From Thermococcus aggregans (GTDB taxonomy: Archaea > Methanobacteriota_B > Thermococci > Thermococcales > Thermococcaceae): 64,000 bases of DNA. Shown one piece after another: positions 58,581 through 61,629 of this stretch. Location of the stretch: positions 124,001 to 188,000 of the forward strand of contig NZ_CP099582.1 in assembly GCF_024022995.1 (NCBI RefSeq), written 5' to 3'. Each line of letters begins with the position of its first letter. The stretch's first letter is position 1. The notes below the pieces were generated by a model that was not told where the DNA came from, did no database searches, and saw only the letters and a list, made by a program, of their open reading frames with translations. Made by a program: the position numbers and the translations under genes.

Positions 58581-58668
58581 TGGTGCGGGGGCGGGGATTT
58601 GAACCCCGGAACCCCTACGGGACGGGACCCTAAATCCCGCGCCTTTGACCAGGCTCGGCTACCCCCGC
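58581..58668 (-). tRNA. tRNA-Leu (TAG), one nucleotide after the rpoD stop
   Basis: Class II tRNA with acceptor GCGGGGG/CCCCCGC, anticodon loop TTTAGGG giving TAG, a long variable arm (CCCGTAGGGG), T arm GGGGTTCAAATCCCC, discriminator A, encoded CCA. The rpoD stop codon ends at 58670, so only base 58669 separates the gene from the mature tRNA 5' end. Confidence 0.95.
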
Positions 58669-58669
58669 G

Positions 58670-59446
58670 CTATTCGGCTAATTTATGGAGCTCGTTTATA
58701 AATTTATCGCTCTTTCTCATTAAAATTTTAAGTGCTAATCTTACTATTTCCTCAACGGGGAGTTCTCCATTGCTTTCTACTGTAAAGACGAATGTATTTA
58801 GCACTACTTCTTCCTTGATTTTATCTCCTAAATACTGATCAAATTCCCTTGGCAAATAGAAGCTCGTTACAGTGGTTACAATAAGTTCATTCTCGTTTTC
58901 TTCAATGGGGAGCTTCTTTCTAGCTGCGAGCTCTTTAATTTTCTCCCAGTTAGGAACATCTTTGCTTACATGCACTTTTGTAAGGTACTTGTAGTAAGCA
59001 AACCCTGGTTGCCATTTTGCATGGTCTTTCCCCCTACCAAGTTTTGCATATGCGTTAAAAACAAGCCTCTGGCCCTCAGCTAGCTTGACTATTGGAATAT
59101 CTGGAGTCACGGGCCTTATATCCGGATCATCACTTTTTAAATCCCCAGAGTAGATTATGGCGGGACCTTCCGCTTCCAAGCTCAATGTAGCGGTGTAGTC
59201 ATCCAACTCCAAAGCATCTAGTTCAAATCTATCTGAGGGTGTCGTCAGGGGAATTAGTGCTAATCTGTGGGCGATTATCTCATCAAAAAGTGCGGAATCA
59301 TTCTCATAGAACTCTACTTCATCAACAGCAAAAGTTGGAACTTCCCCAATTATTGTTCTCCTAAGCGCATTTGCAAATGCAACATCAACGCCCTCTAAAA
59401 TGAAGCGGATTGCATCATCCCTTTTTTCAAGAATCTTTATTTGCAT
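58670..59446 (-). CDS. rpoD: DNA-directed RNA polymerase subunit D
   Basis: A 258-residue RpoD (alpha/Rpb3 equivalent). [31 protein letters not shown] is the dimerisation motif (alpha motif). There is no cysteine in the protein, so it lacks the Fe-S cluster site present in some archaeal D subunits. ATG 59446 follows GGTGAGAAAA. The stop is 1 nt from tRNA-Leu. Confidence 0.95.
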
Positions 59447-60439: not shown

Positions 60440-60886
60440 TCACTTCTTCCTTCTGCTAACACCAACTGTTGTTCCTCTTCTGAAGTTTGACCTTGTTCTC
60501 TGTCCTCTCACTGGAAGGCCAAGCTCATGTCTGATACCCCTATAAGCTCTAATTCTCCTGAGTCTGTTAACGTCCTCACGCCATGCCATAACGAGCTTTG
60601 CTCCCGTGAGATGCATGTCCCTTCCACTCTCGTAGTCCTTTGGTCTGTTAACTGCCCATGAGGGAATACCATGTTTTACTGGATCTTCAAGCACAGCCTC
60701 AATGGCTTTTACTTGTTCATCGGTAAGGTAACCTGCCTTCATTTTTGGATCTAACCCTGCAACCCTGCATACCATTGTTGCAAAGTTTATTCCTATACCC
60801 CTAATTCCAGTGAGGGCCCATCTAAGTTGTTTGTGCCCATCTATATCAACATTTGCTACACGCACGATATGCCTAAAGTCAGCCAT
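60440..60886 (-). CDS. rps13: 30S ribosomal protein S13
   Basis: A 148-residue uS13. [33 protein letters not shown] at the N-terminus, [27 protein letters not shown] at the C-terminus. ATG 60886 after GGAGGTG. First protein gene of the operon, 41 nt after the 3' end of tRNA-Ser on the same strand. Confidence 0.96.
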
Positions 60887-60927
60887 TATAAGCACACCTC
60901 CACAAGTTAATCCTTCAAAGAGGATTT

Positions 60928-61014
60928 TGGCGCCGGGACGGGGATTTGAACCCCGGCGGGCAAACGCCCACGGGCTCTCAAGGCCCGCGCCATCCCAGGC
61001 TAGGCGATCCCGGC
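60928..61014 (-). tRNA. tRNA-Ser (TGA), overlapped by the methyltransferase gene
   Basis: Class II tRNA with acceptor GCCGGGA/TCCCGGC, anticodon loop CTTGAGA giving TGA, long variable arm (GGGCGTTTGCCC), T arm GGGGTTCAAATCCCC, discriminator G, encoded CCA. Its first 15 nt are also the last five codons, stop included, of the methyltransferase gene upstream. Confidence 0.95.
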
Positions 61015-61587
61015 ATACACCCTAAAGCCCGATCCCTTCGCAATTTCTCTTACTTCGTTGAAATTCTCCTCCATGAGCCCCTTAATATACTTTGCGCCTT
61101 GATTAGTGCGGATGACAATTTGAAGTAATCCTCCATCGTAGAGATGATGGGGTGCATTTATAACTATTTCCCTCAATACATCCTTCCCAGCATGCACTGG
61201 AGGATTCGTTATTATGCTGTGAAATCTCTCTCCCTTCACGGGCTCATAGAGATGGCCCCATCTTACCTCGGCATTCTTAACGTTGTTGATTTTTAAGTTT
61301 TTCTTTGCTATGCTCACAGCCCTTTTGTTTATATCGGTCATTACAACATAATTCACGAAGCGCGAAGCCACTATTCCAATCGCCCCGTAGCCGCACCCTA
61401 AATCTAGAACACGCCAATCTTTTTTAAGTATCATATTCTCTATAAGTAGCTCAGTTCCTCTATCAAGCTTTCCAAAGGAAAAAACACCGCTGGAGGTCAT
61501 GAATCTAAAACGCTCCCCTCTAATGACTACCCCAATCATTTTGGTCTTTAATGGAACGTTTGGATCTTGGGAATAGTAGTGGCTCAT
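61000..61587 (-). CDS. RsmC-like class I SAM-dependent methyltransferase
   Basis: A 195-residue methyltransferase of the MJ0882/RsmC group. SAM motif [17 protein letters not shown], acidic motif MTDINKRAV, and the N-P-P catalytic motif [10 protein letters not shown], typical of enzymes methylating an exocyclic amine of a base in rRNA or tRNA. ATG 61587 lies about 25 nt after TTTATAAA (61609-61616) and has no ribosome binding site, so the mRNA is leaderless. The C-terminal codons for Ala-Gly-Ile-Ala and the TAG stop lie inside tRNA-Ser. Confidence 0.85.
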
Positions 61588-61608: not shown

Positions 61609-61616
61609 TTTATAAA
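61609..61616 (-). promoter_or_regulatory. TATA box of the methyltransferase/tRNA-Ser transcript
   Basis: Minus-strand TTTATAAA about 22-29 nt before the methyltransferase ATG. No separate TATA box was seen directly before tRNA-Ser, which lies in the gene's 3' end. Confidence 0.65.
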
Positions 61617-61629
61617 TTTGGGGGATGTG

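Follow-up and report, generated by a model that had tools for sequence, protein, structure and literature searches.

Promoter-like elements within the codons of a methyltransferase gene that ends inside tRNA-Ser(UGA) in Thermococcus aggregans and its relatives

Background

Same-strand overlap between a protein gene and a tRNA gene has been described for selB-selC in bacteria, where tRNA-Sec is nested in or overlaps selB, and repression of the overlapping protein by folding or processing of the tRNA has been proposed (PMC8124441). In Thermococcus kodakarensis, 644 internal start sites were reported, of which 194 lie close to the 3' terminus of an ORF and 90 were classed as primary for the downstream gene; in the same species tRNA-Lys is apparently co-transcribed with TK0306, in the 5' leader of the mRNA (PMC4247193). 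The BRE/TATA consensus is given as RRAAA and WTTTAAAW (PMC6640164).

Here, we analyzed a locus in a 64,000-nt stretch of the T. aggregans genome (the window) in which a methyltransferase (MTase) gene runs into tRNA-Ser(UGA). In the literature searched, neither a report of this overlap nor a start site for it was found.

Results

The MTase gene and its overlap with tRNA-Ser(UGA)

On the minus strand the gene order is L14e, Cbf5/TruB, MTase, tRNA-Ser(UGA), uS13, uS4, uS11, rpoD, tRNA-Leu and eL18, the neighbours being named from their own sequences. The MTase gene (61587-61000, minus strand) encodes 195 aa and most likely starts at the ATG at 61587, the upstream TTG of the ORF list not being preferred. 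Residues 27-191 of the product cover the full MTS domain (PF05175; E-value 4.5e-44; 150.5 bits against a cut-off of 23), and the nearest solved structure is MJ0882 (PDB 1dus; 6.1e-50). By sequence the protein is an MTS-type methyltransferase like MJ0882 and RsmC (PDB 2pjd), the 16S rRNA m2G1207 methyltransferase, but it does not attain the RsmC equivalog level of NCBIfam (83.9 versus 295 bits), and an rRNA or tRNA substrate for such an RsmC-like enzyme is only a guess.

The tRNA-Ser(UGA) gene, or tRNA-Ser(TGA) in DNA letters, occupies 61014-60928 (minus strand; ARAGORN call, RF00005 match). The initial annotation stated that the last four codons and the TAG stop of the MTase gene are the first 15 nt of this tRNA, and the ARAGORN call and the end of the ORF confirmed it: the gene reads TAT and then GCC GGG ATC GCC TAG, ending at 61000, and these codons (Ala-Gly-Ile-Ala-stop, 61000-61014, minus strand) are tRNA nt 1-15. 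A functional-looking tRNA-Ser thus holds the stop of a same-strand coding sequence, which is an overlap of the selB-selC kind. Among the 44 distinct tRNAs of the T. aggregans genome, which were analyzed with their neighbourhoods, only tRNA-Ser(UGA) has its 5' end overlapped by a convincing gene.

Two features of the junction were also considered. T13 of the tRNA, at first sight unusual and forced by the stop codon, was dropped as strong evidence, as most tRNAs of the genome and other tRNA-Ser carry it. At codon 191 (61015-61017), immediately upstream of the tRNA, 67 of 81 genomes have TAT, although TAC would be the expected majority codon; an RNase P reason for this preference was also dropped, as other tRNA-Ser genes in the genome carry C at -1.

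Whether other Thermococcales keep the overlap, a point raised in the initial annotation, was surveyed by a family search across 94 genomes, which gave 86 loci with a long match and three partial loci. The 15-nt overlap was present in 84 of these 89 Thermococcaceae loci. Among the long matches, 81 have an overlap of exactly 15 nt together with a called tRNA, one (L010) has the identical MTase end at a contig edge and four have no overlap; two of the three partial loci overlap and one does not. All five non-overlapping genomes fall in a single genus, g3, where they make up five of nine genomes; g3 is probably Pyrococcus.

In the sister family (8 genomes) the gene order is identical, with tRNA-Ser(GGA) in place of tRNA-Ser(UGA), and the overlap is 1 nt, the last G of the MTase TAG being common to the tRNA. 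The MTase lies at another location in the remaining related families. The overlap is therefore probably as old as the ancestor of the Thermococcaceae and probably arose from genes that already abutted. TAG at nt 13-15 is common among T. aggregans tRNAs, so any frame in phase meets a ready-made stop there. Thus, the length of 15 nt is unremarkable, while the conservation of the overlap is beyond chance.

Promoter-like elements inside the MTase codons

The MTase gene has its own TATA box (TTTATAAA; 61609-61623, minus strand) at -36 from the ATG, an offset shared by most relatives. As judged from the sequence, the MTase mRNA is probably leaderless, with a predicted start about at the ATG.

Canonical tRNA promoters of the T. 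aggregans genome begin at a median of -42 (31 sites), and tRNA-Ser(UGA) has none at about this position. The earlier statement that no promoter directly precedes the tRNA therefore held for the canonical place, but not farther upstream: BRE/TATA-like elements were observed within the MTase codons at -82, -157 and -290. When a matrix built from 31 T. aggregans promoters of other tRNAs was applied to the gene, these were the three best matches (-290, -82 and -157), each with an A-rich BRE directly before an 8-bp AT-rich TATA box. The elements, all on the minus strand, are P1 (CGCAAAGTATATTAA; 61082-61096, 82 nt before the tRNA), P2 (GGAAATAGTTATAAA; 61157-61171, 157 nt) and the promoter-like P3 (AGAAAAACTTAAAAA; 61290-61304, 290 nt; PWM). 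Mean scores over 81 genomes stood out at three places only (13.3, 9.5 and 8.5), the next independent place scoring -4.7. P2 is present in all 81 genomes, P1 is missing from five and P3 from most g3 genomes; 80 of 81 share one 17-nt embedded element (AGGGAAATAGTTATAAA) without a single change.

RNA is predicted to start at A 61059 (codon 177) from P1 and near 61134 from P2. By counting, a pyrimidine-purine step lies about 23 bp past the TATA box in both cases (C/A at 61060/61059 and T/G at 61135/61134). P1 scores 9.8, lower than most tRNA promoters of the genome, and lies 40 nt farther from its tRNA than usual.

The downstream operon

The uS13 gene (60440-60886, minus strand; Shine-Dalgarno GGAGGTG), first of uS13-uS4-uS11-rpoD, begins 41 nt past tRNA-Ser, and this spacer measures 12-42 nt among relatives. 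No promoter was found in the spacer (best PWM score 1.7 versus 6.9-22.2 at real tRNA promoters). Thus, the embedded promoters probably drive tRNA-Ser and the uS13-uS4-uS11-rpoD operon together, and the internal transcripts are predicted to carry the tRNA with the operon rather than the tRNA alone.

The spacer (60887-60927) starts with AAATCCTC in most relatives, which can pair with nearby GAAGGATT or with GGAGG of the uS13 Shine-Dalgarno, and compensating changes seem to occur among relatives. The pairing could be a small translation switch or a hairpin only.

The far end of the operon shows the same design. The last rpoD codons (58669-58709) contain a full canonical promoter for tRNA-Leu(TAG) (58581-58668, minus strand), which begins one nt past the rpoD stop. 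The embedded element (CGATAAATTTATAAA; 58695-58709, minus strand) lies in conserved codons, GAT-Arg/Lys-TTT-ATA in 53 of 53 relatives. A putative promoter in the preceding gene is seen at both operon ends, in MTase for tRNA-Ser and in rpoD for tRNA-Leu. The loci are fixed and the tRNA identities swapped: the tRNA-Leu anticodon is TAG, CAG or CAA within the family and GAG in the sister family, and the tRNA-Ser before uS13 has TGA here and GGA in the sister family.

Frozen synonymous sites

Synonymous freezing, which is independent of the matrix, ranked the P1, P2 and P3 places among the most frozen of 189 MTase codons; its z-values ignore shared ancestry, and ranking within the gene corrects for kinship in part only. 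In P1, codons 165, 167 and 168 are GCA in 78, TAT or TTT in 76 and ATT in 76 of 81 genomes. In P2, codons 139-143 read AGG GAA ATA GTT ATA in 81 of 81, except for one AGG/AGA change. In P3, TTA serves as Leu codon 98 in 77 of 81. The codons that overlap the tRNA (192-195) are likewise frozen. The three top promoter sites alone stand out when freezing is compared with promoter score, the whole-gene rank correlation not being significant (rho 0.10, p 0.16); the tRNA overlap and some other codons freeze too.

The contrast was clearest in the 57 genomes whose MTase gene is at least 50 % GC. There, codon 98 is TTA in 56 of 57, whereas elsewhere TTA accounts for 19 of 896 Leu codons; GAA ATA GTT ATA is found in 57 of 57. 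Third-position AT is 0.78, 0.83 and 0.75 at the promoter places, versus 0.30 in codons 1-138.

The clade without the overlap

In the non-overlapping clade the MTase ends in AGKK or AGRL, followed by 81 or 158 nt up to the tRNA. This interval contains a 44-nt remnant that matches MTase codons 164-178 from a g3 genome with the overlap at 41 of 44 nt (alignment score 73; shuffle maximum 25-29). By counting, it extends from the BRE through the TATA box to just beyond the C/A at codon 177, where RNA is predicted to start. The -157 element survives at the new MTase stop (TAGTTATAAACGC) in three of four full-length escaped genomes, where it straddles the stop as AAATAGTTATAAACGC, with TAG in another reading frame. 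The fourth genome, L086, has a different and unusually strong TATA (AGAAAGGTTTATAAA) directly after the MTase stop, at about -158 to tRNA-Ser.

Both P1 and P2 were lost from the coding MTase copy of this clade, and the protein changed at the same place: REIVINAP of the overlapping genomes became ERIIREAP or ERIIRGAP (residues 139-144, REIVIN to ERIIRE or ERIIRG). Ile-Asn at 143-144, the pair encoded by the TATA codons, occurs in none of the aligned outgroups, which resemble the freed copies in having mostly charged or polar residues at these positions.

Replacement by a foreign MTase was rejected as the protein groups inside g3. The freed proteins form one clade within the genus (99/96), itself inside a 99/96 clade. 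This nesting fits a tandem duplication, by which the clade would have escaped and of which the interval would be the decayed copy. The escape is a single event, and related genomes do not count as independent. In the tRNA of the escaped clade, nt 13-15 changed from TAG to CAG by one substitution, which is consistent with a change possible only where no stop is needed.

Discussion

We consider it highly probable that the DNA in the 3' half of the MTase gene has a double use, as enzyme codons and as promoters of the tRNA-Ser-uS13 operon, in an interlocked arrangement. Two to three BRE/TATA promoters, presumably bound by TBP and TFB, would serve a tRNA-Ser(UGA)-uS13-uS4-uS11-rpoD unit. RNA from the nearest, P1, would start at codon 177 with a 45-nt leader made entirely of MTase codons; RNase P would cleave at 61014 and a 3' enzyme would release the uS13 mRNA, while MTase translation would end at nt 13-15 of the tRNA, which supply the TAG. 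Such interlocking of the promoters, the coding end and the first nucleotides of the tRNA would explain why the arrangement persists, as splitting them would need duplication of the segment, which seems to have happened once, in the Pyrococcus-like clade. The strongest single arguments for the embedded promoters are the contrast within the gene and the escaped clade.

The initial annotation read the locus as a possible switch with feedback through the enzyme: a single RNA would serve both genes and RNase P would cut off its stop codon, so that any one molecule gives the tRNA or the MTase, not both. In 84 of 89 loci the stop is indeed part of the tRNA, so read-through molecules must behave in this way, and the logic that a cut at 61014 strips the stop codon holds for them. 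However, the embedded promoters lie between the MTase start and the tRNA and the MTase has its own TATA box, so a single transcript is not needed for both genes and the switch is not required. In addition, the two genes are uncoupled in the escaped clade, no substrate link is known, and nothing in our findings supports feedback through the substrate. Internal promoters giving tRNA-only transcripts, together with relatives whose gene ends ahead of the tRNA, had been named as speaking against the switch; at the sequence level, strong evidence for internal promoters and five such relatives were found, the predicted transcripts continuing into the operon as no promoter lies between tRNA and uS13. 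We regard the switch as unlikely.

The frozen elements might instead serve a transcript other than the tRNA-uS13 operon, such as an antisense RNA or a small RNA within the MTase gene. Internal and antisense starts are numerous in Thermococcales (PMC4247193, PMC6640164), but antisense matrix scores were well below the sense scores (best 0.9 versus 9.5), the elements of the escaped clade remained between MTase and tRNA, and the spacer before uS13 lacks a promoter of its own. This also appears improbable.

Another explanation is plain compaction, in which the MTase lost its stop and took the TAG of the tRNA, and constraint on the protein or on codon usage, with no promoter involved, keeps the codons frozen. 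The frequent TAG at tRNA nt 13-15 and the overlap of just 1 nt in the sister family fit such an origin. Rare codons such as TTA and the invariant GAA ATA GTT ATA in GC-rich genomes speak against it, and after the escape the elements stayed as non-coding DNA while the protein changed. Compaction without promoters is therefore very unlikely. Also very doubtful is that the overlap is maintained as a regulatory device through which the expression of the MTase adjusts tRNA-Ser and the uS13 operon: terminating ribosomes would protect the tRNA 5' end against RNase P, MTase transcription would pass over the internal promoters, and the RNA substrate of the enzyme would close the loop.

With the embedded promoters, the locus offers a natural test of how strongly regulatory DNA can shape a protein: a codon-embedded promoter fixed synonymous sites and amino acids family-wide, and both were released once the promoter left the coding copy. 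It also suggests how transcription of a core ribosomal-protein/RNA polymerase operon begins in Thermococcales, namely via tRNA genes with promoters in the preceding gene. Knock-outs of the MTase or rpoD ends would delete promoters of essential genes.

As in the internal starts of T. kodakarensis (PMC4247193), BRE/TATA promoters near the 3' end of a coding sequence would serve the next gene; here, a single coding end accommodates two to three promoters and the first 15 nt of a tRNA, and the whole family shows the constraint on codons and amino acids. The tRNA-Lys of TK0306 (PMC4247193) apparently leads a protein-coding transcript, as tRNA-Ser is predicted to do; the present case differs in that the leader is shared with the upstream gene and that uS13-uS4-uS11-rpoD follows downstream. 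In selB-selC (PMC8124441), too, a same-strand gene stops inside a tRNA at a conserved place and some relatives have escaped. However, selB stops at nt 46-48 or past the tRNA, compared with TAG at nt 13-15 here, and the link proposed there runs via SelB, whereas the MTase has no known link to tRNA-Ser.
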